From positions 1-37,029 of the forward strand of contig JAITRN010000020.1 of assembly GCA_031288355.1 (NCBI GenBank): a DNA stretch of 37,029 nt, in the 5' to 3' direction. Below, one piece after another: positions 1-19,115 of the stretch. The translations under genes and the position numbers were made by a program. The DNA is from Candidatus Opitulatrix roisinitermitis. Its GTDB lineage: Bacteria; Actinomycetota; Actinomycetes; Actinomycetales; Bifidobacteriaceae. The notes below the pieces were generated by a model. It saw nothing but the letters and a program-made list of their open reading frames with translations. It was not told the DNA's origin and ran no database searches. Numbering within the stretch: position 1 is the first letter of the stretch; every line of letters starts with the position of its first letter.

Positions 1-449
1 CAGGCTTTGTCGCCAACTTTTATTTTATTATTAGCTGCTGTGGTAGATAGGCCAGAGCCTTTATAAATCAAATCTCCGCCGGTCCAGCTGCAAATAGTGT
101 TATAAAAATTAGTGTTGTCGCTGGAAATATTGCCGCTGCGGCCTGTGGAATTGTCGCAATTAGCCATCGCTTTATTCATATAGGCATAAACTGTTTTGGC
201 TGATGGAAAAGTGCTGTTGCTAGAATTTTCGTCTATTGTGTTATTTATCCCTAAATTGGTTAGTGCACCAGCTTGTGTCGTGGCTCCTGTGCCCCCAAAA
301 CTAATAGGCAAAGAAGCTCCTGAACCGGCCGCATTAGAAACCGAAGAGCCTGTTAAAAATGAGGCAATTGTGAAGAGCACGAAAATGGCTAAGGCTCCTA
401 ATTTTTCTAATTTAATTTTCTTTAATTTCAAATTGGTAAAATTACTCAT
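1..449 (-). CDS. Secreted/surface protein, N-terminal part (truncated by window edge)
   Basis: Reverse complement from ATG at 449 gives an open frame to position 1: MSNFTNLKLKKIKLEKLGALAIFVLFTIASFLTGSSVSNAAGSGASLPISFGGTGATTQAGALTNLGINNTIDENSSNSTFPSAKTVYAYMNKAMANCDNSTGRSGNISSDNTNFYNTICSWTGGDLIYKGSGLSTTAANNKIKVGDKA. Basic N-terminus, hydrophobic core and VSNAA-like cleavage site. Missing from the ORF track because it runs off the edge. Confidence 0.85.
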   Translation of the reverse strand, partial: MSNFTNLKLKKIKLEKLGALAIFVLFTIASFLTGSSVSNAAGSGASLPISFGGTGATTQAGALTNLGINNTIDENSSNSTFPSAKTVYAYMNKAMANCDNSTGRSGNISSDNTNFYNTICSWTGGDLIYKGSGLSTTAANNKIKVGDKA

Positions 450-484
450 ACCTAAATTTTTACAAAAAAAAAAAACGCTCACTG

Positions 485-502: not shown

Positions 503-545
503 ATAATGTTAAATTTAAATATTTTCAAATTATGCAAGAAAAAAT

Positions 546-686
546 TATTTTTTGAGTACCGCTTGTTTCGCAAGCCTGAGGTTATGCGCAATAATGCGCA
601 ACCTCAGGCGCGAACATACGCGCTGTGCTGAAAAAATGCTTGTCTAATATAAACTACGCACATTTTTTCAGACTACTCAAAAAATA
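546..686. other. Nested multi-hairpin element (outer 13-bp perfect inverted repeat enclosing four hairpins)
   Basis: Outer arms TATTTTTTGAGTA (546-558) / TACTCAAAAAATA (674-686). Inside: GCTTG-TTTCG-CAAGC (561-575); CCTGAGGTT-AT-GCGC-AATAAT-GCGC-AACCTCAGG (575-608); GCGCG-AACATA-CGCGC (608-623); CTGAAAAAATG (628-638) / CATTTTTTCAG (661-671). Confidence 0.8.
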
Positions 687-700
687 TTTTCTCTTGGCAT

Positions 701-808
701 TGAAAATATTAGTTTTCCAGGTAATAATTTGTTGGGGTAGCTCGCTCTGGAAAAAAGTAATTAAATTGTTTTAGTTAATTGTCTTTTATTAGTTGAATTG
801 AAAAATTA
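701..808 (+). repeat. Direct repeat A, copy 1
   Basis: tgaaaatattagttttccaggtaataatttgttggggtagctcgctctggaaaaaagtaattaaattgttttagttaattg...agttgaattgaaaaatta aligns with 901-1013. Confidence 0.75.
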
Positions 809-826
809 GTCTGCAGTCCCACTCAC

Positions 827-876
827 TTTTGAAAATTTTTTTGCTATAAAATAAGCTACCGCAAAAATTTTCAAAA
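827..876. other. Long AT-rich hairpin (terminator-like or structural)
   Basis: TTTTGAAAATTTTTTTGC (827-844) pairs with GCAAAAATTTTCAAAA (861-876) with a 2-nt bulge and a 16-nt loop. Confidence 0.6.
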
Positions 877-900
877 CAATTTCTTGAAAAGCATATTGAC

Positions 901-1013
901 GGTTTTCTAAAATATTAATTTTCCCGGTAATAATTTTTTGAAATAGTTCGCTAGAGCAAAAAAGTAATTAAATTGTTTTTAGTTAATGACGTTTTTGTGG
1001 TTGAATTGAAAAA
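901..1013 (+). repeat. Direct repeat A, copy 2
   Basis: ggttttctaaaatattaattttcccggtaataattttttgaaatagttcgctagagcaaaaaagtaattaaattgtttttagttaatg...ggttgaattgaaaaataa aligns along its length with copy 1. Confidence 0.75.
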
Positions 1014-1427: not shown

Positions 1428-4400
1428 ATGAAAAAGTTGAAAAATAATTTTTTGAGGCTTTTGTCTTTCTTGGTTTCGGTTGGAAAAACTTTGATTTATG
1501 AGTTTTCCTCTATTAAAACAAGGCCGCATAATCATAAACATTTGAAATCTGCAACTATAAAAAATTATTTTAAGAAATTAGTCTGTTTTGTAGCAGGTTT
1601 AGCTGTTTTTCTCACAGGAACAATAGTTGCAATCACAACTCCATCTTTAAATCCGGTGTATTCTAACACTTTGATGAAAACTCCGTCTAATAAAGGAGCT
1701 GGTGAAGTTTTGGCTCCACAAGTAGTTTCCACTGCATTTTTGAAAAATAGCGTTGATGAAATATTGAATGTTAAATTGCCTGAATCAAGCTCTAAGAAAA
1801 ATGTAGAAACCTCTAAAAAACATCAGTTATTAGTCAAGGTAGATACTTCTAATGCTAAAAAAGCTGGTGAACTGATTATTGCTGAAAACAATGATTGGAA
1901 TGTGCCAACTCGTGATAAACAGAGTTTTGCTTATAAATACCCTAAAAATAGTTCTAGTTTTGAGGCTTTGGTTAATGTCTCGGATGACAATCATTTAACA
2001 GCTCGTTCCACCACCGACGTAAATATTCGTTTAACTGCTTTGGCTGATTTTTCAGATGTTCCTGCTGTTAGTTTGACAAAAAATTTAGAGTCTGACGGTA
2101 ATGACGATCAATTTCATAAATATTTTAAAGGGGATCCAACTCAAGTAAAACCTGAAACCGCTAAAGGCGAATTGGCTCCAGGCGGCACAAAGGCAATAAC
2201 ACCAGTTGTTTTGTATGATAACCAAGTAGGCATAGGAGCGGCTCTTAGCAAAAATAATTCTCTTTCTGTTTTAGGCAAGGGGTCAATTCCTTCAAGAAGC
2301 GAAAAAGACTCCTATCCTGTCAGGGCGGTATGGCTTACAATTTATGCTGGTGAAAGTGAAGTTAAAATAGGCGGGAGTGTAATTCCGGCTAAAACTAATA
2401 AAACTGTTATAGCCCAGGTGAATGAGGTTGGTTCAGTTGATTTTGAGGTTTCTGATCCTGCTTCTTTTGTTAAAATTTCTGCTTCAGGTTATGTGGGCGC
2501 GTCTTTTTATGATGAGGATCAAACAATTGTGGATGGTGGCATAGCTGTTTTGGGTTCACAAATGGATTCAAGTTTAGCTCAAGGTGTTCAAAATTTTGCA
2601 AAAATTGATGGGATTGAAGGCGGCGCTTTTCTGAATTTAGATAATGCCGATGAACAAAATTATGAACCAAATATAACAATTAATGATATTGGTGAAATAA
2701 CTTTAGGGAAACAAATATATGTTGAAGTAAAAGGAACAGTTGAGTCAAGTCCAGCATTGCAGAATGTTGCAATTTATGCAAATGGTCAATTTATTGCAAT
2801 TGCTAATATTGACCAAACCCAAAGTCCTGCTCGCTATTTTGCTAAAATTGTTCCAGGGGCAGGCCAGGCGAATATTTCGGCAGTGGCCACAACTTATTCT
2901 GGAAAACAAAAAACTGCTAGCACTTTGGCAGATGGGGTTAATGATCCAGGGCCTGATGTTCCTATAGTGTCAGATGACGCTTACACTCTTTCAGATGACG
3001 CTATGAATAGAATTTCTATTCAATCAGCTAATTCATTAACTTTTAAAGGGCCCGAAGACATTGTTGTGCCAGAGTTTGACAATATGGGAAATGTAGTTTA
3101 TGATTCAAACACAGGCAAGCAGCAGGTTCATGTAATTGACGCTGGAGATGTGGTTCTTTCGAATTATAAAGATAAAAGTAATTTTTCTCGAAGGGTTGTG
3201 GCAGTTGATAAATTTCCTTCAAAAATAGTTTTAATTACTTCAGACGCGGCATTGGACGATGTTTTTGAACAGGCCGATATGAAAGAATATCCAACTCTTA
3301 TGCCAAATTCTGCTTTACAGGTGGATTCGGCTTTGAAAAAAAACCAAAAGACAGGTGTCTATGAAGGAGATAAAAAGTTAGAATTATCAGAGGAAGAATA
3401 TAATCAGCTACAAAAAGATAGTAAGACTAGTTCTCAGACTGAGCTAGACTCCGACCAAAGTCAAACGCTTTCAAAAGAGCAGCAGCTTTATAACAGTTCT
3501 GAAAAACAGCCAGATAAAACGGCTCATGTCGGAGAAGAATTTACCGAAAGCGAAAAAAAGACAAATGAGTTTTTGGACGCTTCTGTGCAGCAGATGGAGA
3601 ATGGCGAAAAAATTCAGGGTCTTTATACTGATAAAAATAATACTGATAATTTACATTCCACCGGAGCAATTAAACAAGGGTCAATAACGCAGAATGGAGT
3701 AGCAAGCCCCCAAGCAGATATAGATACTCCTGATGTCCCCTCAGATCCAAATGATCCCCGTAGTGATGACCCTAGCGCATTAAGCGATTCAAACGGAGCT
3801 AATGGGCTTGACATAATAAGTTTGTGCGTTAATGTAGGGTTTGATATTACTGCTAAAGTCACTAGTCAATCAGGTCCTGTCAATCAAGTTGCAGTTAGTG
3901 CAAAAGCTCAGTTAAGGGCTTGTTTCAAATTTAATTTTATAATTGAATTTGGCATAAAGATTTTTTGGAAATGGAATTTTATTCCCCTAAAAGCATCTTT
4001 TCATTTTAAAATAGGTATATACGAACAGTCTTCGGCAAGGGTTTATCTGAAAGGTTCGTTGAATGTTCAAAAGAATTTAGCAGCATATCCTCTTGTGAAA
4101 TTTGATGATTTCTTTGTAGCCATGGTGGCTGCGGTTCCTCTTTGTTTTGAAATTGTTTTCACCACCAGTTATGCTCCCGGTCTAGTTTTTGAGGGAATGG
4201 GGACAGGGTCTATTTATGTTTCGCAAAGTTATATGAATTATTATGAATATAACTCTGGAGCTGACGATAATGGCGTGCATAAACACAGCAAAAATGGCTC
4301 TAAAACAGCTAATGTTTATGGCCAATTTGGAGCTTATTTTGATGCTTATTTTCCCTTGTCGTTAGAGCTTGTAGCATATGGAACGCTTAGACTTGAGTTA

Positions 4401-7400
4401 GCGATTTTGCCTTTTTTCAGAATAGGTTTTCAATTTACATTGTCGAATTATCCACAGCCTGATAATTTGTGTTCTATTTATGGCCCCCCCTGTGGCAGAT
4501 TGAATATATCGTTATATTTTGTTTTCCAAGTTTATATAGCAGCATATGTTAGATTTAAAATTGGCTGGAATTTAGGGCCCCTAAAGCTGCAATTTACGTT
4601 TAAATTTGCGGAGATTGCGTTTGGGCCTATTGGGGTTAATCTTTCTATTATTAGTTTAGTTAGAGAAACTCCGCCTAATCGTTGGATAGACATGTTTTAT
4701 AATCCTAGTGCGCCGGCTCCTGGTCCAGAACCTGGTCCAAGTCCTCCTAATCCAGCATATACGGGTCCGGGTTCAGTTTATAGTTATGGAGATAATGCTT
4801 ATGGTCAGCTGGGCAATGGTGAAAAAGGATCTTCTTCATATGATTTAGAGCCCGCGTTGGGTCTTTCTAATATTAAAAAAGTTGTGTCCTCGCCTTCTTC
4901 AAATGCCACTTACGCTTTAGATGATAAAGGCTATTTATATTCATGGGGCGACAATTCAAAAGGGCAGTTAGGGCGTGGATTTATAGGAGATAAGCCAACT
5001 AATTGGACTTCTTCTTCAAAATCTTCATCTGAGCCTGATAAGGTGGTTGACAAGAATGGTAATCCTTTATCGGGTCTGCAAGATATAGCGGCTTTTGATG
5101 GCGGGGGTTATGCTTTAACTAAACAAGGTTTAGTTTATTCGTGGGGCGACAATTCTTTAGGGCAGTTAGGAGATTCCAGTGCTAATTCAAGAACTTTTGC
5201 TGACCAAATTCCTGCTTTAGAAGCTGTGGAAATGATAGCAGGCGGTTCATCCACAGGTTATTGTGTTAAAGAAGATGGGACACTTTGGGCTTATGGCAAA
5301 AATATAACAAAAACTAGTGGTTCTTGGTCTTCCCCAACACGTTTAGGTTCTATTTCAAAGGCTAACGGTCAAGATGTAAAACTTATAGCTGCCGGAAGTG
5401 ATAATTTTTATTTTGCTTCTGATGATAAAATTTATGGAATAGGTGCTAATAATGGTGTAACTTTTGGTTCAGGGCAGCCAGATTTTATAACTTCTGAAAA
5501 TTATGCACTTGTGGCTAATCAACCTGATACTTCTAAAACTAATGGTTGGCATTCGCTTTCGGCTAATGGCCAAACGGCATACGCTTTAGGCAATGATGCA
5601 CAAGTTTATGCATGGGGAAAAAATGATTTTGGTCAGATTGGAAACGGTCAAAAAGGTTTAGAGAATGTTGGTTTAACAAAATGGCAGAGCACAAAAAGAG
5701 TTGCCAGTATTAGTGCAGGAAACGGTTTTGCTGTTGCAGAAACAGAAGATGGTAATATGTTAGGCTGGGGCAAAAATGATTCTGGTCAGTTAGGCTTAGC
5801 AAAAAATATTTCTCAAACTTCAACACCAACACTTAATCCAGCTAGCCATATTTCGCAAGTGGGGGCAGGGGGCAAAAACTCTTATATTGTTAGGAAAATT
5901 GCTAGTGTTGCAAGCACATCTGGAACTCTAAATCAGGTTGATTATAATTCTGATGGCCAATCTAGCGTATTGCCTGTGCAAGGCATAGCTCAGAACACTG
6001 CTAGTAAAACGGTCACAAATTCTATGGGGACTTTTGTTTTAACCAAAAAGGGAACAGTCAAAAAAATTATTAAAGAAACTCTGAGTTCAGAAGATATTAA
6101 TAATTCCAATAACGAAATAAATAAAGTTGAGGATATTGCTGCTTCTAAAGATGCTATTTTTGCTATGACAGAAGATGGTTCTGTTTTTAGTTGGTCAGAT
6201 AATGTTAATTCTAAGAGTTTAGGCAGAGCGGTTTCTAAAACTGAACAAGCTCAAACTCCAGCAAGAATTAAATTAGATAACACATTAGACGATAAAGGCA
6301 ATGTCATAAAAGAGCGTTGTGGGGAGGCTGATGAATCTGGAGTAACAGGTATTTCAGCTTTTTCAGATAGAGCTTTTGCGATTTGTCAAATCAATGGTGA
6401 AGGTTCTTTAGCAAATCCAGCTCATTTAATTGCTTGGGGGGATAACACAGATGGGGCTTTAGGCATAACAGACACTTCTGCTTATTCACAGGAGCCTCAG
6501 AGGGTCACAAAAATAGATATTGCAGGTTTAGATTTTCAGCCGTCGTCAATAGTGGCAGGAGCAAATTTCACAAGTGTTTTAAATAAGAATGGCTCTGTTT
6601 TAGCTTTTGGACAAACATCAGCTGCCGATTATATAAATGCTGTAAATAGTGCTTATTTCACAAAAGATAAAACTGTTGAAGATAGCAAAAATATAACGTC
6701 AATTACTGCTTCTTGGGGTGGATTTTATTTTGTGAATAAAAAAGGCGAAGTTTGGACATCAGGCCAAAGTGTTAACGATGGCGAAAAGGTTAGTCAAAAT
6801 ATAAAAGTGCCAGTTAAAGTAAATGGCCTTGATTATAATTTTGTAGTTTCTATTTCGGCTTTGAAAACAGATTCTAACAATTTAAATGATACTATTTTTG
6901 CGCAAACTGATGATAGTGAAATAATTGCTTTTGGAAATGATTTAGCGAATCCGCCTGGTTCTATGAAACCTAATAATTTTAATTCTATTTTTAATTCCGT
7001 TAGTGTTTGGTCAGGAGATTCACAAGCCTATATAATAACTGGTGATTATAATAGTCCCTCTGTCTTTAGTGAAGCAGGTTATTTGTTTTCAGCTGGGCAA
7101 AATTCGTCTGGCCAATTAGGCCTGAATTCTTTTGTATCACAAAGCAATTTAGAATTAGCCGAAGCCGCTGAAACTGGTCAAATTACTCAAGCTGCCTCAA
7201 ATAATTCCACAGGTTATGCACTAACTCCTGATGGAAAAATAATTTCTTTTGGCGGCAATTCTTTTGGACAAAGAGGCGTGGGGGATGTTTCAGAGGGCCA
7301 TAATGAAGGCACTTTTGTGACAGGTATGTCAAATGCTGTGCAAATTTCAGCTTCTGGTGATGCGGCTTTTGCTTTAGATAAATTTGGCGATGTTTGGGCT

Positions 7401-10400
7401 TGGGGACGTTTAGCCGATGGGTCATATTTGATTCCTCAGAAGCTTCAAACTGCCAATAATATAATTCAAATTAGTTCTGCTGCTGGTTCTTTATATATGA
7501 TTCGTTCTAATGGATCTGTTTTGTTATGGAATTTGGATTTTCAAAAACCTGCTAAGGTTTTAGAACAATTAAATCATATAGCACAAATTTCGGCTTCATC
7601 CAATTCTCTTTTGGCTTTGCAGAGTTTTAGCTCTGTAGATTCTGACGATTCAAGCAGTTCTGTAAATAATGTTTTAATTTATAATGAAGGTTCTGGCACA
7701 ACGCAAAAACAGGTTTTGCCAAAGGAGAGCGACGGAAAAGATATAACTGTCAAAAATATTGCTGCTAGCATAAATGGCGGAGCTGGGGCGGATGCTTCAA
7801 CATATTATATCACTGATAATAAAGGAGTGCTTTATGCCTGGGGATCAAATTCGGCCGGTCAAGCTAATCCGTATTCTAACGAGCCTAGTTTTTCTACGCC
7901 GCAAGCAGTTACAATTCCTATTAGTTCTAATGCTGTTAAAAGTTTAGCTGCGGGCTGGAAAGATGTTTATTTAACAGATGAGGATGGTGTGGTTTGGGCC
8001 TTTGGCGACAATTCATTTGGCCAGTTAGCTCAAGGAAACACAGATACTATTAGAAAGGTTGTCGCAATATCTGGTTATTCGGCTAAAGGGGTTTCGGCTG
8101 GCGAAAATACGCTTTTTGTTATGGGAGAAACCGAAAAAAATAATTATCAAGCTGGAGCAATTTATGCTTTGGGAGATAATACTAATGGTTCGCTTGGGGT
8201 GGATAGTAAAGAGGCTAAAGTTAATCAGTTTATGCCTGTAAATTCAGCTGTTAATCCATCAGGCGGCACAGCAGGAATAAATTTCATAAAAGTTGTGACT
8301 AACGGCAATACGACCGTTGCTTTAGATGAAAGCAAAAATGTTTGGCAGTGGGGTAAGGATTTTGACTCTTCTTCTGTTAGTAATCAACCAGTGCTTTTGC
8401 AAAGTATAAAAAATGTTTCAGATATCGCCATTGGTGGTCAAGCTGCTTATGCTTTGAAAACTGACAAAACCCTTTGGTCTTGGGGTGCAAATAATTTTGG
8501 TCAGTTAGGGAATAATAAATTGGATATTAAATCTTTGCCTAAATCAAATCCGGGAATAGTTTGGGGATTGTATAATATAGTCAGAATTGGTGCTGGAGGA
8601 GATTTTGCAATGGCTCAAAAATCTGATGGCACAGTTTATTCTTGGGGCAATAATGATTATTATCAGCTTGGTTTAGGGCAATATAAAAAAGACCTTTTTT
8701 ATGGCAGTCCGCAAATAGTTGAGGCTTTGCAAGGTGTGGCAGTTAAACAATTAACAGGCGGTTCTAAAACAGGCTATGTTTTAACAAATTCAGGCGATGT
8801 TTGGTCTTGGGGCAAAGGAGGCAATGGACAATTAGGTGATGGGACAATTTCAGAAAAGAAGGAGTTCCCATCCAAAATTGATATAACTCCAGGAACACGA
8901 AATACTACTCGAGTTTTTGCTTATAATATAGGAGCAAGCGATGATTCAGCTTTTGTTATGGGAAGTGATGGTTTGGTTTATGCTTGGGGCAAGAACGACA
9001 AAAATCAGCTTGGCACCATTGACGGCACCCAGCCAGAGCCTAATCCTTATTTATCAGCTTCACAAAACACTTTTGTTGCCGGTAAAACATCATATTTAAC
9101 TACTGGAAAAAATTCGGTTTATTTTGTAGATTATAATGGTGAGGATGTAGCTGGATTTGGAGGAAATGAAGCTGGGCAATTTGGCGGGTCCGCTCAGTCT
9201 TATGCCACAAAACAAAAACTTATAAAATCCTATAAAGGTAATCCTTTGTCTATTTCTGCTGGCGGCAATCAAATATATATAATTGTGCCAATAGATGTTC
9301 AAACTGGAACAGACACAAATATATGGGCTGTGGGAAATAATGATTCTGGTCAGTTAGGACAAGGTTCATCTGCTGCTAAATCTTCCCAAAAAATTCTTTC
9401 TGTTAGAGCTGTAGATGACGCTCGAGGTGTAACAGCGGCTAATGTGGCAGCAGTTAATCAAACAGGGGCAGCAGCGTTGCAAGACGGCAGAGTTCTATCT
9501 TGGGGTTCGGCTGCTAATGGTCTTTTAGGCAATAATTCTCAAACAGGAACTCGTTCTTTGGCCGATTTTGTTTTGCCGCCAAAAGGTGGTCAGCAGTTTT
9601 TAGTTAATAATTCGTCTGCGTGTATTGAATCATTTTGTGAGGTGCAAGATATTATAAGTGCAGGAGCAGCTTTTTATGCTTTGACTTTTAGCGGAGCAAT
9701 TTATGCTTGGGGGAATTATCAAGGTAATAATAAATTAGTGCCAACTTTGGTTTTGGCTCCTGGCGAAGGTTTAGATAAAATAACAAATATGGACTCTAAG
9801 GGAAGCCGTATTGTTGCCTGGCACGACAAATCTCTTGATAGCTCTTCAGACGATTGTGTCAACAGTCTTTGGGCCTGGACAAATGATACAGCACCTGTCA
9901 AGATAAATATTTCAAATGATAATAAAGACAGTATAGAGAAAGTTTTTGTGACAGCAGACGCTTATTATGCTGTTGTTGTTTTGGCAGCGGGCAATAGAAC
10001 TATTTTTGCTTGGGGCTCTAACACAAATTGCGCTTTAGCAGATACTATCACTTGTAGTTTGGCGTCTGGGCATAAAGAAGGCACTCCTTTTATTCCGGGA
10101 ATGTTGTCTAAAACACCTTTGGTGGATACGGTTAAAGATTTTACTGTTAAAGATAGTCAAAATTTGGCTTTAGATAAAGAAGGTCATATTTGGAAATGGG
10201 GGAAGACTCCTGGTAATATGGATCCGACAATTAGTCAAGATATGACTTTAAGCGGATCAAAATTTGTAGATAATGGTAATTCTCAATTTGTTTATACGAA
10301 ATGTTCGTCAGATTCATCTGATTGTAATCCAACTCAAGTTTATGCTGAAGGCAAAAATAATTATGGACAACTTGGCACAAATAGTGTGTCAGATGTTGCA

Positions 10401-13400
10401 AGTTGGGTTCAAGCCAATCAATTTTCTTCTAAATTAGGTGTCACACAATTAGCTTCAGGATCAAGCGGTTTCACTCTTGCCACAGGCGTCACGCCAGAAG
10501 CTCCTACTATAACTAATACGACTGCAACATATAGATATAATGCAGGCGATAAAATGTTTTTAAAATTTGGAGTGCAAGCTTCGCCATTTCCTGACACTAA
10601 TAATTTAAGTTTCAAATTTTCAAAAGGTTGGACGTCCTTAGATGATTTAGGGCTAGAGGCTCAGTGCGACACCAGCGATTGCTCCGTTTCCGGGACTTTG
10701 CAAGGACTCCCAGGACTCTATACTTTTGTTGTGACAATTTCTTCATATTTAGGGAGTATTTCTCGACAATATCAAATAATTTTAGATGGTGTGGCGCCAA
10801 CGCTAGAGATAAAAAATAAAGATATACCGACATCCTTTAATATAGGAGATGATATAAGTATTCCAATTTACACAACAGGCACACCAAAACCAAATGTGAG
10901 TGCAGATAATTTGCCAGAGGGCCTGCAAATTGCAGAAATTTTTGATCAAGCGGATTTGGATGCAGGCATAACTCATAGAATTGAGGGCAAGATTTCTTCA
11001 ACTGCTCAAAACACTTATAATTCTGTCGTTAAAGCCAAAAATGCTGTTTTACCTGATGGAGTAAGCCAAAATATCGTTTTCAATATTTCGCAAACCCCAG
11101 CTTTCCATATTCCTTGTGAAGAGCAAAAAGAAGGCACTAATACCAAGTGTATTATAAAAGTTTCCACCCAGGATATTCTCAATATAGATTTAAATTTAGT
11201 TTCAAACCCTGAAATAACTGATGTATCAGTTTCGCCGGCTAGTGTTTTGCAAACTCTAGGAATTAATTTGGAGAAAAAAATGATAACTGATGTTGTGGCA
11301 GATAATCCAGCTGATTCAAAAATTTCTGAACATTGGTTTTTAACCACAAAAGGGATTATCGGAAATCATAAAGGCCAATATGAATTGACTGCTAAAGCTG
11401 GTGAAAATGTCTCCGAAAAATTCTGGTTATATGTGGACGATGTTTTGCCGTCTATTTCTAGCAGCACAAATTATTCACAGATTGTCGGAAATCAAATATA
11501 TTTTCCTTTAACTGTTGAGGGCACGCCTTTCCCTGTTTTATCTCCAGCTGGGTATTCTAAAAATGGCGTAAAAAGCCCTGATAATGCTTGGCCGAATTGG
11601 CTGCATTTAGATCTAAATAATGATGGACAAATTGGGTCTAATGCTCTTAAAGGAAATGTTATTAGTTTAACTTCGCCATCCTTAACTAAGGATACTATTG
11701 GTGATTATATAATAAATATACTTGCTAAAAATGTTGCTGGCAGTGTGAATTTATCAGTTTCTTTACATATAACGGGTTCAGATCCTGTAATAAATATAAC
11801 AGATCAGCAGTTCTTTTTTGATAATGCCGATAATTCTAGACCAATTTCAGATTTTTCGGTGACAGGATCGCCAGATCCTTATGTTACGTTAGAAAGTGTT
11901 AGATTTACTTCAGTTGATGGGAATTTAACAAATGCGCCAAGTACTTTGTTTGCTTTGGATGATGGTCCTTTAGGGACAGGACCTTTTAGTATTTTTGCAA
12001 CTACTGATTTAGCGCCAAAAGACGTTGGCGAATATATTTTGAGTTTAAAGGCTAAAAATGCTATGGGAGAAGTTTCTAAACAGGTGAAATTTGACGTTAT
12101 TGAAAAGGCCAGTTTTAATATAACTGGCAAAACAGAATACAATTTGGGTGATGAGGCAGTTTTAAATTTAGGTCTTTCGGGCAATCCGTGCCCTGTTTCA
12201 GTAACAGCTGTTTTGCCAGATGGCGCTGATTTTACAAGTAAAATAGAAGGAACATCCTGTTTACAGGGATATACATTTAAAACATCTCAATTTAAAAAAC
12301 TAGGTTCTTACCAAATCAAGTTTTCGGCAATTCAAAAATACACTGGCGATGTTGCCCAGCTAGAAACTATAGCTTACACAACAATAAATGTTAATCCTGA
12401 CAAACCTCAAATAAAAGTTCCAGCTAATTTGTCAGTTTATTCATCAAGTGCTTTTGAAGAGAATTTTCAAATAAGCGGCAATCCGTGCCCAGCTTTTGTG
12501 AGTTTAGAAAATGCACCTGATTGGATTCAAGTTGCTAAAACAAGTGGAGACTCATGGTGTGGTGGCGGTAAAATTTATGGGACTGTGCCAGATAATGTGT
12601 CGGTAAATACTGCTTTACCAATAACTATTGAAGCGAAAGTAGATGATAATAATAAAACCCAAGCGACGAGTGTTATTCAAATAGTTGGGACAGCGCCAGA
12701 TTTTCATATAAATACTAGTACTAACGGGTCTGTAGGCAAATATTATTCGCTTGATTTAGGTGTGACAGGTAATCCTTTCCCAGATGTGACTGTTCAAAGT
12801 GCCACAGATGGACAAGGAGGTGTTTTACCAAAGGGTTTGTCGCTTTATAATGATAAAGTTAAACAAAAATGGTTTATTCAAGGAATGCCAGAAAAAGTTG
12901 GCCGTTCAGAGTTTTCGTTAGTGGCGACTAATAGTGCTAGCGCTTCGCAAACAGGCAAAAATTCATCAGAATCTATTTTAGTAAGTATTATTATTTCAGG
13001 GAGTTTCCCTGCTTTTAATCCGGTAGGCACAACTAATATTTTTGTTGGACAATTTATTAATATGCCTCTTGGGGTGACAGGAAGTCCATGTCCAGTTGTG
13101 GAAATTGATTCTGCTAGTCCTAAGATAAATGATATTGCTATTGTAGGAAATTGTAATGAGGGTTTTTATTTGAGAGGCGTGGTTGATTCAAATACTTTGC
13201 CAGGGGCATATGACATAAAGATAACAGCAACAAATTCCCAAGGTAAGGCTGTTACAATTTTGCCTTTGAAAATTTTTGCAACATCTTCTCCGCCGACTAT
13301 AACAGACCAAACCGATTATTCAATTTTGCAAACTCGTTTATCATCTATAAATTTGGGTGTTCAAGGTTCTCCTTGTCCAAATGTCAGAGTTGATGACGCT

Positions 13401-16400
13401 AGTAAATTGCCAAAAGGGATGTATTTAGTGCCTAATTTGACTTGTGCAGACCCTTATGGCGCTAGAATTGAAGGTGTTCCGTTAGTGGAGGGTTCATATA
13501 CTTTTAAAGTCACAGCCTCTAATAGTTCAGGAGTTGTTGAAAAAAATATAACTATAAATGTCAAAGCTTATACTCAGGCTCCAAAATTTTATTCGCCAGT
13601 TTCGGCTATCGGCTCAGAAGAAGATTTCTTTATTTTCAACTTAGGCTTAACATCAGATCCTATATCTCATTTGTATTTAGATCGACAATCTGATAAATTA
13701 CCTAATGGTTTGGAGTTGCTAGCAAATAGTGATGGGTCTTATTATATTTCAGGCAGACCCGGTTTAGGCACAGCTGGAATTTATAATTTGATAATTGAAG
13801 CTGATAATGGTATTGAACCAAAAGCTAGTCATTTGTTGACTTTAACAATAACAAAAGATCCAATAGCCCCGGCTTTTCATTTGCCAACAAATACTTTTAG
13901 CCAAATTTTAGAAGATAATTTTCAAATTCCTTTGTTGGTTTCAGGAAATCCATGTCCAGTTTTGAGTTATCAAATAACTTCCCCTGCGTCTAATCCGTCA
14001 GTTTCTAATTTGTCTATTTCAGGAAGTTGCGGTTCGTCTGGGTTTATTTTGCATGGAAATGCTAGTAGTTTAGGGACCACGACTATTAGATTAACTGCTC
14101 AGAATCCTGATGATGAGCAAATGAAAGCTTTTGAAGATATAAATATTATAGTTGGAGGAAATGAGCCACAAATTATTTCCCCGAGTTTTGTTTCTGCTAA
14201 CTCAAATGAAGTAATAAGTGTTCCTGTAGTTGTAGTTGGCGAGCCGGTGCCTAGTTTAACAGCTAAGGATTTGCCTGATGGGTTAGCTTTGGTCGGCAGC
14301 GACCGAAATTGGCGAATTCAAGGCTCAATTGCTAAGGTTGGTGTTTATAAAACAATTCTAACTGCTCAAAATGCTAATTCAAGTAAACAACTATTTATAG
14401 AATTTCATATAGTAGATTCAGCTATTAAATTTAATATGCCAGATTTGGATAATGCCGCTTATGGGGTTTATTATAATATGCCATTAGATATTATAGGAAC
14501 TTGTCCAGATAATGTTAAAATAATTAATGGCAATTTGCCTGATGGTTTAGATATTGTTGGCGGTTGCACAGGCTCGCCTTATGCAATTTCTGGTGTTCCA
14601 AAGTTTAATTCATCTAAGTCAAAAGACTCTTTTCAGATAACCTTGCAGGCGGAAGTCGGCGGAACAAGCGGGCAAACTGCCTCTAAAGATTTTACTTTAA
14701 ATATCCATTCAGAAGCTCCGCAATTTTTTGGTTCAGATACAGCAGTATTTAAAACTGGTGATTTTGCTGTTTTTGATTTAGACGTTGTGGGTAATCCAAT
14801 ACCTATTGTTTCTGTTGAAGACGGTGTTTTGCCAGATGGTTTGAAATTGCAGGTTATAGACCAAGTCACTGGCGATGTTGCTATTTTAGGAACACCTAGC
14901 AGCGCTGATATAGGTTCTAGATATGTGAAATTCAAAGCCCAAAATCCGCAAAATCCATCAATTTTTGCTGAAAAAATAATTAATATAAAAATTGTTGGTA
15001 ATGCCCCGGCTTTTGCTATATCGCCGAATATTGCTTTTAATATAAATAGTGAATTTGTTTATTCGCTGGGCGTCACAGGAAGCCCTTGCCCTAGTGCTTT
15101 GCAATATAATAAAGGTGATTTGCCGCATGGGGTTAGTATTTTAGGGACTAATTGTTCAAGTGACCCTTATAGAATTGCTGGATTGGTGCAAGAGGTTGGT
15201 ACATGGGTTGTTCCTATAAAAGCAGGTAATTCGCAAGGTAGTGCTGAATTAGATTTAACACTTCATTCGGCTTCTAGCATTCCACAAATTGGCGGTCCTG
15301 ACAATATCCAAGCCACTGAAAAGCAATTCTTTGTTGCTGATTTGGCTGTGAGCGGAGATCCTTGTCCATCTTTGTCATTTTCAGCTAGTCAATATTCGGG
15401 TAATATAAAACTTATTCAAGCTAGTGATTTAAGTTGTAATTTTAAATTGGCAGGGGCAATTGATAATTCGGGCGAATATCAAGTTAATATAACGGCTACA
15501 AATTCAGCTGGCTCGGCTCATAAACAAATTATTTTGCATATTGGAGGCACAAAACCAGCTTTTCATTTGGATTCAAATATAACAGTGCCTGAGGAATCGA
15601 CTTTAAAAATTCCTTTAAATGTGACAGGTGATCCAGCGCCAACAGTTATTTTGAAAAATATTGTTTTAGTTGATCCGCCAGCGCTTCCTCCTCTGCCACA
15701 AAACTTGAAAATAGTTAAACAAGATAATTCATGGTATTTAGCAGGTAGTTTAGAAGATTCGTTGATTGACGGATTTGATGAAGTAACTTATGGCATTAAT
15801 ATGGAAGCTTCTAATAAAGATAACAGCAATAAAACATCTGTTACTCCTTTTGAATTGCTCTTAAAAGTTGTTAAACAGCAGCCAAAATTTGTTGCACCAA
15901 ATATTGTATATGCTACTCAAAATTCTTATTATGAACTTCCTTTAGGTCTTGATAAATATATTGTTAGAGTTAAAAATGGTTCAGCTTTGCCAGACGGGCT
16001 AATTTTAGCACCTGCCCAGTCTTCGGTTAAGTCACATTTAGGTTGGATGATATATGGCACGCCAACTGCAATTCAAACCACTAATACAACTTTGGAATTA
16101 GTTTCTTTACAAGGAAGTGTTTTAGATACAGCAGATATTCAATTTAATATTGTTTATTCAGCACAGCCACAGTTTAATCCAACTGGTAAAACTTCAGTTT
16201 TAAATTCTGAAAGAATAAATATTCCTTTAGGTGTTGTTGGCAATCCTGCTCCCGAGGTCACTGTACAAGGCGTTTTGCCAGATGGTTTGAAATTGCTAGG
16301 AAGTGTTGGTTCACAATGGTCTTTACAAGGAAAAATTAGTCAGCCTGCTAAATATTCAATTTTGTTAAAGGCTTGTTCTGGTTCACAGGATAGTTTAATA

Positions 16401-19115
16401 TGTGCTGACCAAAATATTGATATAATTGTCACTGATGGCAGCCCACAATTTAATGTAGCAAATCAAATTTCATTGACTGTTGGTTTAGAAAAAATTGTGA
16501 ATTTACAAGTTTCAGGAAACCCTAATCCTGAAGTTAGTATAGAATCTGGTGTTTTGCCAGATGGCTTATTTATCGATTTTGATAAAACGGCTGGCCTGTA
16601 TTTAATTAAAGGAACTCCGCAAAATGCTGGTGAATATACAGTGACTTTCAAAGCAGTTAATGGAGCCGGTGAAACACGCGCTATAGTAACTTTTCTAGTT
16701 GGTAGTCAAGAACCTACTTTCTTTTTGCCCGCAGTGTCTTCTGCTGTGATAGATGAATATTTTTCTTTGCCAATAAAAGTCGCAGGAGACCCTTGTCCTA
16801 TTTTGGCGCTTGATGAAACTTCTGAAGACCTGCCAGTTGGTTTAACTTTGCAAGGAATTTGTGATTCAAATAAAAGTTCAAGTTATAAAATTGCAGGAAC
16901 AATCACAGACGAGGCTCATTTAGGCAATTATAATATTGTTTTGTCAGCTAAAAATTCTGATACAAAAGTTTTAGGAACAGTCACGATAAGTGTTGTTAGT
17001 CGAGCTCCAGCTTTTTCAATAGGGGCAAAAGCTCAAGCAATATTTGTCAAAAGTAAATTTTCGCGATTTGATTTAGGCGTCACAGGTTCGCCTTATCCAA
17101 ATATAATGTTGGAAAGCGGGAATTTGCCGGCAGGATTGAGTTTACAAACTGATCTTTTGGCTAAAAAAACATATATTTTGGGCTCGCCTGATTCATCAGA
17201 AGTATTTGGCAGCCAAACAGTTGTTAATCTAAAAGCCCAAAATCCAGACAATCCTAGTCAATTTGCTCAATTGCAGTTAACTCTTATTATAAATGATGAT
17301 AGTCCGTATATTTCGCTTCAATCAACTGATAGTGGGCCGACAGTTACTGTTGAATTTAATGAGGAAGCTACAATTAATTTTAATGTTGCTGGAAACCCAA
17401 TACCGCAAGTTAATTTATCTGGCGCTTTGCCGAAAGGTTTTGTTTTAGCTGGTTCTGGTACATCAGTAGTTAGTATAGCCGGCCAAAGCACACAATCAGG
17501 CACTTATCATATCGCTCTTACTGCCGAAAATATTTATGGTAGTCAAACCTATAATTTAATATTAGTTATTTTAGGAGCTCAACCTCGCTTTTTGTCTAAT
17601 CCTGTGATAAATTTAACGGTCGATTCTTTGGCATCTTATGATTTAGGTGTCACTAGCTGTCCTTATGGAGCTAAAGTTGTTTTGAAAAATTCTGAGGACT
17701 ATCCTTTGCCAGAAGGTTTGGAACTAAAACAAGTAAAGAATAATGGTATTAGTAATATTTGTGGAAATATACAAGACGCTAATTCAGCTATTTCCCCAAG
17801 TGATAAATGGATTATTCAAGGCACGCCAAAGGTTTTAGGGGAGCAAAACATCAATCTTGAAGCTTGTGCGGTTAATTCACAGGATCAAATAGTAGGTGTT
17901 TTATGTCAAAGAGAAGAGTTTGAAATAAATATTAGATCATCTGCTCCTAAATTTAATGTAGAAACAGATTCAGAAGGTAAATTGATTATGCCACTAACTT
18001 CTGGCACAGAAGTTAGCTTTGATTTAAATCTTACAGGCAATCCAGCTCCAGAAGTTTCTGTTTCCAAAGGCGCTTTGCCAAAAGGTTTAACCATATCTGA
18101 TGGATTTATTAAAGGCGTTTTAGATAGTGATATTGGTCAGTATTCTTTAGAATTAATAGCTAAAAATAATTCTGGGAAGAATGATAAATTGCCAGTTTTG
18201 ATTAGCGTTTCGGGTCAAAACCCAGCTTTTCATCCGCTTTCTACAAAAATGCATGGCACAATTGGTCAGGTTTTCGATATAGATTTAGGCATTACGGGCA
18301 AACCTTTGCCATTTGTTTTTGTAGAAAGCGGAAAATTGCCGTCTGGCATCAATTTAGTTCAAACAGAAACTGATTGGTATTTACGCGGGCGTTTACAAGG
18401 AGTCCCTGGTTCGTTTGATTTTACTTTGAAAGCTCAAACTCCAGTTTCTAATTCTGTTTTTCAAGAGAATGAAATAGATTCTACTTTACCTAATGCGATA
18501 TCTTCTGCTCAGGACGAATTTGTAATTCAAGCTGATGCTGTGGCACCTAGTTTTAATATGTCTAATGGCAAAATTTTATCTGCTAAACAATATAAATATA
18601 TAAATATACCTTTACATTATTCAGCTGAACCTTGTAAAACGCCAAAAGTTGGCAATTTGCCACTTGGTCTGTCTTTATCAGGCAGTTGTAGCGATGGTTA
18701 TGAAATTAATGGAACAGTTTTGGCTGGCTTGGGTAGTCATAAAATTCATTTATCAGGTGAAAATGCTGGCGGAAAAGCTCAAAAAGATTTGTATTTAAAT
18801 ATTTTGCCAAGTGATAAACCTAATGAATTCCCGACAACCTCAGATAGCAGTTTTAATAATAGCTCAGTTAATCAAAATACTGTAAACAGTCAGTCGAAAA
18901 TTGGAAAATCTCAATCTAGTTTGCCAGAGAATCAAACGCCAGAGAATCAGATTAGTGCAAATTCGGCATATTCAGATTTTGCTAATTTGCAAAATGGTTT
19001 AATAATTTCAGGATTAGGCTTTTTGTTGTTAGCCTTAGCTTATTTTATTTTGCGAAAGTCTTTTTGGCTTAAATTGTTTTTTGCAAAAAAACCAAAAGGG
19101 GGAGATGATGAGTAA
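1428..19115 (+). CDS. Giant surface protein (5,895 aa): export segment, strand-rich region, RCC1-like repeats, He_PIG/Ig-like repeats, C-terminal TM anchor
   Basis: Single uninterrupted ORF. RCC1-type motifs such as YSWGDNSKGQLG, YAWGKNDFGQIG, WSWGANNFGQLG; Ig-like motifs such as GNPxPxVxVxxGxLPxGLxL...xGxPxxxGxYxxxxxAxNxxG; C-terminus GLIISGLGFLLLALAYFILRKSFWLKLFFAKKPKGGDDE. Confidence 0.95.
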   Translation: MKKLKNNFLRLLSFLVSVGKTLIYEFSSIKTRPHNHKHLKSATIKNYFKKLVCFVAGLAVFLTGTIVAITTPSLNPVYSNTLMKTPSNKGAGEVLAPQVVSTAFLKNSVDEILNVKLPESSSKKNVETSKKHQLLVKVDTSNAKKAGELIIAENNDWNVPTRDKQSFAYKYPKNSSSFEALVNVSDDNHLTARSTTDVNIRLTALADFSDVPAVSLTKNLESDGNDDQFHKYFKGDPTQVKPETAKGELAPGGTKAITPVVLYDNQVGIGAALSKNNSLSVLGKGSIPSRSEKDSYPVRAVWLTIYAGESEVKIGGSVIPAKTNKTVIAQVNEVGSVDFEVSDPASFVKISASGYVGASFYDEDQTIVDGGIAVLGSQMDSSLAQGVQNFAKIDGIEGGAFLNLDNADEQNYEPNITINDIGEITLGKQIYVEVKGTVESSPALQNVAIYANGQFIAIANIDQTQSPARYFAKIVPGAGQANISAVATTYSGKQKTASTLADGVNDPGPDVPIVSDDAYTLSDDAMNRISIQSANSLTFKGPEDIVVPEFDNMGNVVYDSNTGKQQVHVIDAGDVVLSNYKDKSNFSRRVVAVDKFPSKIVLITSDAALDDVFEQADMKEYPTLMPNSALQVDSALKKNQKTGVYEGDKKLELSEEEYNQLQKDSKTSSQTELDSDQSQTLSKEQQLYNSSEKQPDKTAHVGEEFTESEKKTNEFLDASVQQMENGEKIQGLYTDKNNTDNLHSTGAIKQGSITQNGVASPQADIDTPDVPSDPNDPRSDDPSALSDSNGANGLDIISLCVNVGFDITAKVTSQSGPVNQVAVSAKAQLRACFKFNFIIEFGIKIFWKWNFIPLKASFHFKIGIYEQSSARVYLKGSLNVQKNLAAYPLVKFDDFFVAMVAAVPLCFEIVFTTSYAPGLVFEGMGTGSIYVSQSYMNYYEYNSGADDNGVHKHSKNGSKTANVYGQFGAYFDAYFPLSLELVAYGTLRLELAILPFFRIGFQFTLSNYPQPDNLCSIYGPPCGRLNISLYFVFQVYIAAYVRFKIGWNLGPLKLQFTFKFAEIAFGPIGVNLSIISLVRETPPNRWIDMFYNPSAPAPGPEPGPSPPNPAYTGPGSVYSYGDNAYGQLGNGEKGSSSYDLEPALGLSNIKKVVSSPSSNATYALDDKGYLYSWGDNSKGQLGRGFIGDKPTNWTSSSKSSSEPDKVVDKNGNPLSGLQDIAAFDGGGYALTKQGLVYSWGDNSLGQLGDSSANSRTFADQIPALEAVEMIAGGSSTGYCVKEDGTLWAYGKNITKTSGSWSSPTRLGSISKANGQDVKLIAAGSDNFYFASDDKIYGIGANNGVTFGSGQPDFITSENYALVANQPDTSKTNGWHSLSANGQTAYALGNDAQVYAWGKNDFGQIGNGQKGLENVGLTKWQSTKRVASISAGNGFAVAETEDGNMLGWGKNDSGQLGLAKNISQTSTPTLNPASHISQVGAGGKNSYIVRKIASVASTSGTLNQVDYNSDGQSSVLPVQGIAQNTASKTVTNSMGTFVLTKKGTVKKIIKETLSSEDINNSNNEINKVEDIAASKDAIFAMTEDGSVFSWSDNVNSKSLGRAVSKTEQAQTPARIKLDNTLDDKGNVIKERCGEADESGVTGISAFSDRAFAICQINGEGSLANPAHLIAWGDNTDGALGITDTSAYSQEPQRVTKIDIAGLDFQPSSIVAGANFTSVLNKNGSVLAFGQTSAADYINAVNSAYFTKDKTVEDSKNITSITASWGGFYFVNKKGEVWTSGQSVNDGEKVSQNIKVPVKVNGLDYNFVVSISALKTDSNNLNDTIFAQTDDSEIIAFGNDLANPPGSMKPNNFNSIFNSVSVWSGDSQAYIITGDYNSPSVFSEAGYLFSAGQNSSGQLGLNSFVSQSNLELAEAAETGQITQAASNNSTGYALTPDGKIISFGGNSFGQRGVGDVSEGHNEGTFVTGMSNAVQISASGDAAFALDKFGDVWAWGRLADGSYLIPQKLQTANNIIQISSAAGSLYMIRSNGSVLLWNLDFQKPAKVLEQLNHIAQISASSNSLLALQSFSSVDSDDSSSSVNNVLIYNEGSGTTQKQVLPKESDGKDITVKNIAASINGGAGADASTYYITDNKGVLYAWGSNSAGQANPYSNEPSFSTPQAVTIPISSNAVKSLAAGWKDVYLTDEDGVVWAFGDNSFGQLAQGNTDTIRKVVAISGYSAKGVSAGENTLFVMGETEKNNYQAGAIYALGDNTNGSLGVDSKEAKVNQFMPVNSAVNPSGGTAGINFIKVVTNGNTTVALDESKNVWQWGKDFDSSSVSNQPVLLQSIKNVSDIAIGGQAAYALKTDKTLWSWGANNFGQLGNNKLDIKSLPKSNPGIVWGLYNIVRIGAGGDFAMAQKSDGTVYSWGNNDYYQLGLGQYKKDLFYGSPQIVEALQGVAVKQLTGGSKTGYVLTNSGDVWSWGKGGNGQLGDGTISEKKEFPSKIDITPGTRNTTRVFAYNIGASDDSAFVMGSDGLVYAWGKNDKNQLGTIDGTQPEPNPYLSASQNTFVAGKTSYLTTGKNSVYFVDYNGEDVAGFGGNEAGQFGGSAQSYATKQKLIKSYKGNPLSISAGGNQIYIIVPIDVQTGTDTNIWAVGNNDSGQLGQGSSAAKSSQKILSVRAVDDARGVTAANVAAVNQTGAAALQDGRVLSWGSAANGLLGNNSQTGTRSLADFVLPPKGGQQFLVNNSSACIESFCEVQDIISAGAAFYALTFSGAIYAWGNYQGNNKLVPTLVLAPGEGLDKITNMDSKGSRIVAWHDKSLDSSSDDCVNSLWAWTNDTAPVKINISNDNKDSIEKVFVTADAYYAVVVLAAGNRTIFAWGSNTNCALADTITCSLASGHKEGTPFIPGMLSKTPLVDTVKDFTVKDSQNLALDKEGHIWKWGKTPGNMDPTISQDMTLSGSKFVDNGNSQFVYTKCSSDSSDCNPTQVYAEGKNNYGQLGTNSVSDVASWVQANQFSSKLGVTQLASGSSGFTLATGVTPEAPTITNTTATYRYNAGDKMFLKFGVQASPFPDTNNLSFKFSKGWTSLDDLGLEAQCDTSDCSVSGTLQGLPGLYTFVVTISSYLGSISRQYQIILDGVAPTLEIKNKDIPTSFNIGDDISIPIYTTGTPKPNVSADNLPEGLQIAEIFDQADLDAGITHRIEGKISSTAQNTYNSVVKAKNAVLPDGVSQNIVFNISQTPAFHIPCEEQKEGTNTKCIIKVSTQDILNIDLNLVSNPEITDVSVSPASVLQTLGINLEKKMITDVVADNPADSKISEHWFLTTKGIIGNHKGQYELTAKAGENVSEKFWLYVDDVLPSISSSTNYSQIVGNQIYFPLTVEGTPFPVLSPAGYSKNGVKSPDNAWPNWLHLDLNNDGQIGSNALKGNVISLTSPSLTKDTIGDYIINILAKNVAGSVNLSVSLHITGSDPVINITDQQFFFDNADNSRPISDFSVTGSPDPYVTLESVRFTSVDGNLTNAPSTLFALDDGPLGTGPFSIFATTDLAPKDVGEYILSLKAKNAMGEVSKQVKFDVIEKASFNITGKTEYNLGDEAVLNLGLSGNPCPVSVTAVLPDGADFTSKIEGTSCLQGYTFKTSQFKKLGSYQIKFSAIQKYTGDVAQLETIAYTTINVNPDKPQIKVPANLSVYSSSAFEENFQISGNPCPAFVSLENAPDWIQVAKTSGDSWCGGGKIYGTVPDNVSVNTALPITIEAKVDDNNKTQATSVIQIVGTAPDFHINTSTNGSVGKYYSLDLGVTGNPFPDVTVQSATDGQGGVLPKGLSLYNDKVKQKWFIQGMPEKVGRSEFSLVATNSASASQTGKNSSESILVSIIISGSFPAFNPVGTTNIFVGQFINMPLGVTGSPCPVVEIDSASPKINDIAIVGNCNEGFYLRGVVDSNTLPGAYDIKITATNSQGKAVTILPLKIFATSSPPTITDQTDYSILQTRLSSINLGVQGSPCPNVRVDDASKLPKGMYLVPNLTCADPYGARIEGVPLVEGSYTFKVTASNSSGVVEKNITINVKAYTQAPKFYSPVSAIGSEEDFFIFNLGLTSDPISHLYLDRQSDKLPNGLELLANSDGSYYISGRPGLGTAGIYNLIIEADNGIEPKASHLLTLTITKDPIAPAFHLPTNTFSQILEDNFQIPLLVSGNPCPVLSYQITSPASNPSVSNLSISGSCGSSGFILHGNASSLGTTTIRLTAQNPDDEQMKAFEDINIIVGGNEPQIISPSFVSANSNEVISVPVVVVGEPVPSLTAKDLPDGLALVGSDRNWRIQGSIAKVGVYKTILTAQNANSSKQLFIEFHIVDSAIKFNMPDLDNAAYGVYYNMPLDIIGTCPDNVKIINGNLPDGLDIVGGCTGSPYAISGVPKFNSSKSKDSFQITLQAEVGGTSGQTASKDFTLNIHSEAPQFFGSDTAVFKTGDFAVFDLDVVGNPIPIVSVEDGVLPDGLKLQVIDQVTGDVAILGTPSSADIGSRYVKFKAQNPQNPSIFAEKIINIKIVGNAPAFAISPNIAFNINSEFVYSLGVTGSPCPSALQYNKGDLPHGVSILGTNCSSDPYRIAGLVQEVGTWVVPIKAGNSQGSAELDLTLHSASSIPQIGGPDNIQATEKQFFVADLAVSGDPCPSLSFSASQYSGNIKLIQASDLSCNFKLAGAIDNSGEYQVNITATNSAGSAHKQIILHIGGTKPAFHLDSNITVPEESTLKIPLNVTGDPAPTVILKNIVLVDPPALPPLPQNLKIVKQDNSWYLAGSLEDSLIDGFDEVTYGINMEASNKDNSNKTSVTPFELLLKVVKQQPKFVAPNIVYATQNSYYELPLGLDKYIVRVKNGSALPDGLILAPAQSSVKSHLGWMIYGTPTAIQTTNTTLELVSLQGSVLDTADIQFNIVYSAQPQFNPTGKTSVLNSERINIPLGVVGNPAPEVTVQGVLPDGLKLLGSVGSQWSLQGKISQPAKYSILLKACSGSQDSLICADQNIDIIVTDGSPQFNVANQISLTVGLEKIVNLQVSGNPNPEVSIESGVLPDGLFIDFDKTAGLYLIKGTPQNAGEYTVTFKAVNGAGETRAIVTFLVGSQEPTFFLPAVSSAVIDEYFSLPIKVAGDPCPILALDETSEDLPVGLTLQGICDSNKSSSYKIAGTITDEAHLGNYNIVLSAKNSDTKVLGTVTISVVSRAPAFSIGAKAQAIFVKSKFSRFDLGVTGSPYPNIMLESGNLPAGLSLQTDLLAKKTYILGSPDSSEVFGSQTVVNLKAQNPDNPSQFAQLQLTLIINDDSPYISLQSTDSGPTVTVEFNEEATINFNVAGNPIPQVNLSGALPKGFVLAGSGTSVVSIAGQSTQSGTYHIALTAENIYGSQTYNLILVILGAQPRFLSNPVINLTVDSLASYDLGVTSCPYGAKVVLKNSEDYPLPEGLELKQVKNNGISNICGNIQDANSAISPSDKWIIQGTPKVLGEQNINLEACAVNSQDQIVGVLCQREEFEINIRSSAPKFNVETDSEGKLIMPLTSGTEVSFDLNLTGNPAPEVSVSKGALPKGLTISDGFIKGVLDSDIGQYSLELIAKNNSGKNDKLPVLISVSGQNPAFHPLSTKMHGTIGQVFDIDLGITGKPLPFVFVESGKLPSGINLVQTETDWYLRGRLQGVPGSFDFTLKAQTPVSNSVFQENEIDSTLPNAISSAQDEFVIQADAVAPSFNMSNGKILSAKQYKYINIPLHYSAEPCKTPKVGNLPLGLSLSGSCSDGYEINGTVLAGLGSHKIHLSGENAGGKAQKDLYLNILPSDKPNEFPTTSDSSFNNSSVNQNTVNSQSKIGKSQSSLPENQTPENQISANSAYSDFANLQNGLIISGLGFLLLALAYFILRKSFWLKLFFAKKPKGGDDE
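4765..10480 (+). other. RCC1-like beta-propeller repeat region of the giant protein
   Basis: About 33 recurrences by eye of a [YWF]xWGxNxxGQLG-like motif followed by V..IxAGxxxxxALxxDGxVxxWG spacing; several copies degenerate. Confidence 0.85.
10500..18810 (+). other. He_PIG/Ig-like repeat region of the giant protein
   Basis: About 30 units of about 90 aa with LGVTGxPxPxVxV...LPxGLxL...IxGTPxxxGxYxxxxxAxNxxGxxxxxxxIxI. Confidence 0.8.

Follow-up and report, generated by a model that had tools for sequence, protein, structure and literature searches.

A repeated leader with an exchangeable hairpin and a T tract stands before a secreted-protein gene family in a probable termite-gut Bifidobacteriaceae symbiont

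Phase-variable families of surface proteins can carry homopolymers in their promoters or leaders, as in the mycoplasma Vlp system (poly-A) and Neisseria porA (poly-G), and a homopolymer close to the promoter is what usually marks slipped-strand phase variation. Longer structures have also been described beside variable surface-protein genes. In Borrelia, inverted repeats at vlsE were proposed to favour gene conversion in the vls system (PMC11499132), and the leader of Clostridioides difficile cwpV was proposed to be a terminator switch of a cell-surface gene, working via site-specific inversion (PMC2784873). Here, a repeated leader module is described from Opitulatrix roisinitermitis, whose type genome comes from the termite Roisinitermes (PMC11707648). 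The organism is a reduced Bifidobacteriaceae symbiont which probably lives intracellularly, inside termite-gut protists.

The window, that is the whole stretch of 37,029 nucleotides that was analysed, belongs to a genome of 983 kb in 104 contigs, ~86% complete (G000). It was compared with a sister genome (G002) and with two more distant congeners (G001 and G003). All of these are incomplete metagenome-assembled genomes (MAGs) whose contig ends often fall in the repeats described below, and absences are therefore provisional. Read in the orientation of the gene, the module consists of a C' arm, a cassette, an A' arm, a T12–13 tract and the start codon, and its copy in the window was annotated as follows:

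1–449, minus strand: 5' part of a secreted-protein family gene (MSNFTNLKLKKIKLEKLGALAIF...SLPISFGGTGATTQAGALTNLGI..), start codon at 449–447, cut by the contig end
451–524, minus strand: A' unit, leader- or promoter-proximal (39 scored copies)
464–475, minus strand: T12 tract (A12 on the plus strand), between hairpin and start codon
476–502, minus strand: A' arm of the basal stem, on its 3' side in gene orientation, ending 1 nt from the T tract
525–719, minus strand: cassette type 1, the exchangeable palindromic centre
546–686, no strand assigned: 141-nt element in the middle of cassette type 1, comprising 13-bp arms and four inner hairpins
720–796, minus strand: C' unit, of which 720–746 is the other basal-stem arm, an inverted copy of the A' arm (63 C-region matches in the genome)
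797–925, minus strand: outer half of a cassette of type 2, left from a further unit and recognised by comparison with full type 2 cassettes
926–1003, minus strand: second C' unit, end of the array toward a giant gene

A sequence-only reading had singled out positions 546–686 as a perfect 13-bp inverted pair around four hairpins with short linkers, either a structured RNA or a small TA-flanked mobile element, and unexplained by the neighbouring genes. The pair is real: 546–558 (TATTTTTTGAGTA) is the exact reverse complement of 674–686 (TACTCAAAAAATA), and inspection of the sequence showed the four inner hairpins, joined by short linkers, inside it. Folding of 540–692 gave −59.7 kcal/mol (z −8.6) on the plus strand and −64.8 kcal/mol (z −9.5) on the minus strand, with none of 200 shuffles as stable. 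The five-way junction that had been suggested is one among several structures of nearly the same stability, since an alternative fold merges the inner hairpins. That the element is structured and occurs repeatedly was borne out by 26 matches to 540–692 in the genome, with conserved stems and some compensatory changes. The TA flanks did not hold up, the left flank being ATCAC or ATTAC in most copies, and Rfam returned no match to the element above the gathering threshold.

A second stem, formed by 476–502 with 720–746, encloses the element. Since the A and C arms are inverted copies of each other, the whole of 476–746 is one quasi-palindrome of ~270–300 bp. The 141-nt element is neither a stand-alone structured RNA gene nor a miniature inverted-repeat transposable element (MITE). 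It belongs to cassette type 1, the swappable middle of this quasi-palindrome (~300 bp) directly 5' of a gene, and the adjoining leftward gene (449→1) is exactly the explanation that the neighbourhood had seemed not to offer.

Other features of the window lie beyond the array. A ~60-bp stretch (..acatagtcagtttttttggcgcaaattaaggcttttc..) occurs twice, ~100 bp apart, at 1038–1220, upstream of a giant open reading frame (ORF). Two such ORFs are adjacent, 1428–19115 (5895 aa), with RCC1-like repeats and putative Ig/PKD domains, and 19081–28071 (2996 aa), with Ig-like matches. Both are likely surface proteins, and their size is unusual for a ~1-Mb genome. Downstream of them, at 28141–29619, a gene for an LGFP-repeat protein lies beside one for an ABC-transporter ATPase.

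The repeat unit proved larger when alignments were extended, and 43 A-region matches were found in G000, with 39 scored A' units. Thirty-six of these 39 stand directly 5' of a family gene in the same orientation, and contig C77 carries the remaining three. The distance from A to the start of the family gene is mostly 8–50 bp, the gene running away from A. The N-terminus of the family has 51 matches in G000, and 67, 43 and 11 in the three congeners. Members share a signal or anchor segment and a conserved linker (..ISFGGTGATTQAGALTNLG..), followed by differing C-terminal modules. These include a TIG domain accompanied by a weak, below-cut-off match to a FISUMP-like domain (TIGR02145), and repeats without a confident family. 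Nearly every copy of this secreted family of ~50 genes stands behind a hairpin module.

The T run between A and the start codon is T12 in 20 copies and T13 in 13 (range 9–14). Runs of at least 11 T number 41 in the 983-kb genome; 38 of these are at leader units and one is unrelated. T13 tracts without a hairpin were also seen 48–67 nt before two other secreted or membrane protein genes, L149 (C25:29250) and L155 (C77:8799), so that the putative switch would extend beyond the family. At the same place, family genes of G003 carry ~T11 followed by GGAATAATTTTAGTATG, and those of G001 a G8–9 tract with T7. A repeated motif, GGACTGCTACCCTTTTAGTTAACAAA, was seen upstream of family genes in G003 (L094–L111), and is perhaps the counterpart of the C' unit. 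A homopolymer is therefore present beside the start across the genus, in the same position near the promoter of many paralogues, as expected of slipped-strand phase variation. Like the Vlp and porA systems, this one combines many paralogous secreted proteins with an 8–14 nt homopolymer beside the start, of a kind otherwise rare in the genome. Unlike them, it has a large exchangeable hairpin before the tract and occurs in a reduced actinobacterium, probably a protist endosymbiont, in which switching is putative. According to PMC11707648, Bifidobacteriaceae generally lack mutS and mutL, and such a lack would make these tracts unstable.

Arrays consist of a single A unit and between one and five C units. 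Four unrelated types of palindromic cassette share the one slot between A and C; cassettes are complete beside A, whereas between the C units further on only the outer part is left. The order A–cassette–C–cassette–C brought integron-like gene cassettes to mind, an idea rejected as the cassettes contain no genes and the ~40 arrays are scattered, each bound to a gene start. On the far side, arrays border either another member of the family or housekeeping genes, among them fusA, gyrB, mraZ and gcvH. Runs of ~10–13 C or G, further homopolymers in these regions, were noted inside some arrays (L018, L009 and L019, e.g. on C73, C12 and C63).

Cassette type was mapped on a tree of 25 family N-termini and required 13 changes, against 14.3 with shuffled labels. 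Its distribution on the gene tree is thus random, which indicates that cassettes move between gene copies. Orthologous loci gave the same picture: the locus of a 212-aa family gene has a type 4 and half a type 1 cassette in G000 and a full type 1 in G002 (Roe453_bin58), and cassettes likewise differ at the gcvH, C5 and ABC-transporter loci. The basal arms have changed together between the two genomes (TGTTGGGG versus TTTTGGAA). Within a single genome, the advantage of an arm's own partner over others in A–C pairing is slight (p about 0.1).

Among 59 genomes of the genus, family and order, the DNA repeat was found in G000 and G002 only, plus one short A-like match in G003. Among 85,000 named genomes, the cassette core was recovered only in the MAG Bifidobacteriaceae bacterium Roe453_bin58, plus two single matches at chance level. 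A viral origin was rejected, the core pattern being missing from 2.9 million viral contigs. Upstream folds in G000 had z-scores of about −10 (about −3 for type 4), and those in G003 and G001 were near 0, barring one tRNA-containing stretch and one G001 copy (z −2.8). The hairpin is lineage-specific to the two sister genomes, and the homopolymer is genus-wide. No family gene was present in the fusA neighbourhood in G003 or G001, or in the gyrB neighbourhood in G003; insertion of gene and hairpin as one unit was discarded as an account, synteny with these genomes being too broken for a clean empty site.

To this arrangement we give a tentative reading, held at somewhat short of even confidence, in which the repeat is the leader module of a phase-variation-like surface-protein family, with hairpin and U-tract serving as a terminator or attenuator, and the hairpin centre being swapped by gene conversion. 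Slippage in the T or G homopolymer beside the start would switch transcription or translation. On a transcript running toward the gene, the hairpin of the C' and A' arms, ending 1 nt before U12, could form an intrinsic terminator or attenuator, which would bar read-through from neighbours or C'-side promoters into silent copies. C-side neighbours run in the direction of the family gene in about as many cases as they diverge from it, which argues that insulation from read-through is not the sole need. The hairpin may have originated when A' was duplicated in inverted orientation, and exchange of the hairpin centre would run through the flanking A and C homology. Four unrelated cassettes in one slot point to the shape of the hairpin, not its sequence, as what matters.

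The evidence on the strand and molecule involved was mixed. In full type 1 copies, the lowest basal pair lies 1 nt before the T tract on the gene-sense strand; the stem thus ends beside a U tract on the transcribed strand, which is the geometry of an intrinsic terminator. The basal stem is AT-rich and encloses ~200 nt, and so is not the compact GC-rich stem of such terminators. A scan with standard terminator models found none, the hairpin being too long for them, and no consensus promoter could be placed with confidence. Across 18 type 1 copies, eight of 99 predicted pairs have changes on both sides, and basal and inner stems are kept. G-U pairs number 32 on the gene-sense strand and 10 on the other, and after subtraction of shuffles the gene strand folds ~8 kcal/mol better in types 1–3, but not in type 4. 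In stems with Watson-Crick pairs only, derived changes to G-T and to A-C were near symmetric (100 versus 88 cells), so that selection at the RNA level is possible but weakly supported. The raw strand difference in folding energy was not taken by itself to prove RNA, since part of it follows from composition and since the two kinds of derived change are so evenly balanced.

By analogy, the CwpV leader of C. difficile would be the nearest precedent for a terminator-type switch of a surface gene. The two are alike in having a hairpin and poly-U between an upstream region and a cell-surface gene; they differ in that no invertible leader segment is known here, and in the ~300-nt length of the hairpin.

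The main rival, by analogy with the vls inverted repeats of Borrelia (PMC11499132), is a recombination function, in which the palindrome would be a DNA-level hot spot whose extrusion as a cruciform promotes gene conversion among family members. Both systems have long inverted repeats or palindromes beside a variable surface-protein gene, but the symbiont has ~40 dispersed copies with no single expression site identified, and interchangeable palindrome centres. A hot spot is favoured by the swapping of cassettes without regard to gene phylogeny, by the chimeric make-up of arrays that hold outer half-cassettes, by an inverted hairpin tip in one copy (L073), by the near symmetry of G-T and A-C changes, and by a common N-terminus joined to differing C-terminal modules. 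However, two congeners with the same gene family have no palindrome, and swapping may result from repeated homology rather than be the function. SbcD, part of a nuclease that destroys long palindromes in other bacteria, was not found in the four congeneric genomes; this counts against a hot spot, and the absence of SbcCD would explain why the palindrome is tolerated. A hot spot would also leave the promoter-proximal position with its T tract and the gene-sense G-U bias unexplained, and on balance we consider it somewhat unlikely.

Also unlikely, and placed after it, is that these are selfish or neutral palindromic repeats without function, which gene conversion spread after they had arisen through duplication of A' in inverted orientation. 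Their confinement to two sister genomes, the many truncated and tandem remnants and the lack of a conserved cassette sequence would fit, but stems are kept with compensatory changes, all four unrelated cassettes are palindromic, and the basal stem abuts the T tract in full type 1 copies.

A more elaborate scheme, in which half-cassettes stacked upstream of one gene are transcribed and pair in trans with matching hairpins of other copies as a combinatorial identity code, so that expression is limited to copies with chosen cassettes, appears improbable. A metabolite-sensing riboswitch or other sequence-specific regulatory RNA would agree with a conserved structured 5' leader, but is very improbable given four unrelated cassettes in the same slot with no core common to all, no Rfam match, and absence from the congeners. 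Least credible is a MITE or other transposable element mobilised in trans, of IS630/Tc1-mariner or REP/IS200 type: the repeat is multicopy, its arms resemble terminal repeats and, like MITEs and REP/BIME elements, it is short, palindromic and non-coding, but the TA flank is unconserved, the 13-bp arms lie inside a larger palindrome, the copies are bound to a fixed place before one gene family without target duplication or a cognate transposase (no DDE_3 in the four congeneric genomes, which are incomplete, with control genomes positive; no Y1_Tnp in the same four, which told against REP/BIME with RAYT), and related MAGs were reported without transposable elements (PMC11707648).

A large repeated structure is hereby added to genomes reported without transposable elements. 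If the leader-module reading holds, a reduced, probably intracellular symbiont would maintain a broad set of secreted proteins that can be switched, with a module in which a homopolymer switch is coupled to a swappable hairpin. Whether long palindromes next to antigen-like genes act via transcription termination or recombination could then be tested in a natural system, and the interaction between protist and symbiont may involve variation of the antigenic type.
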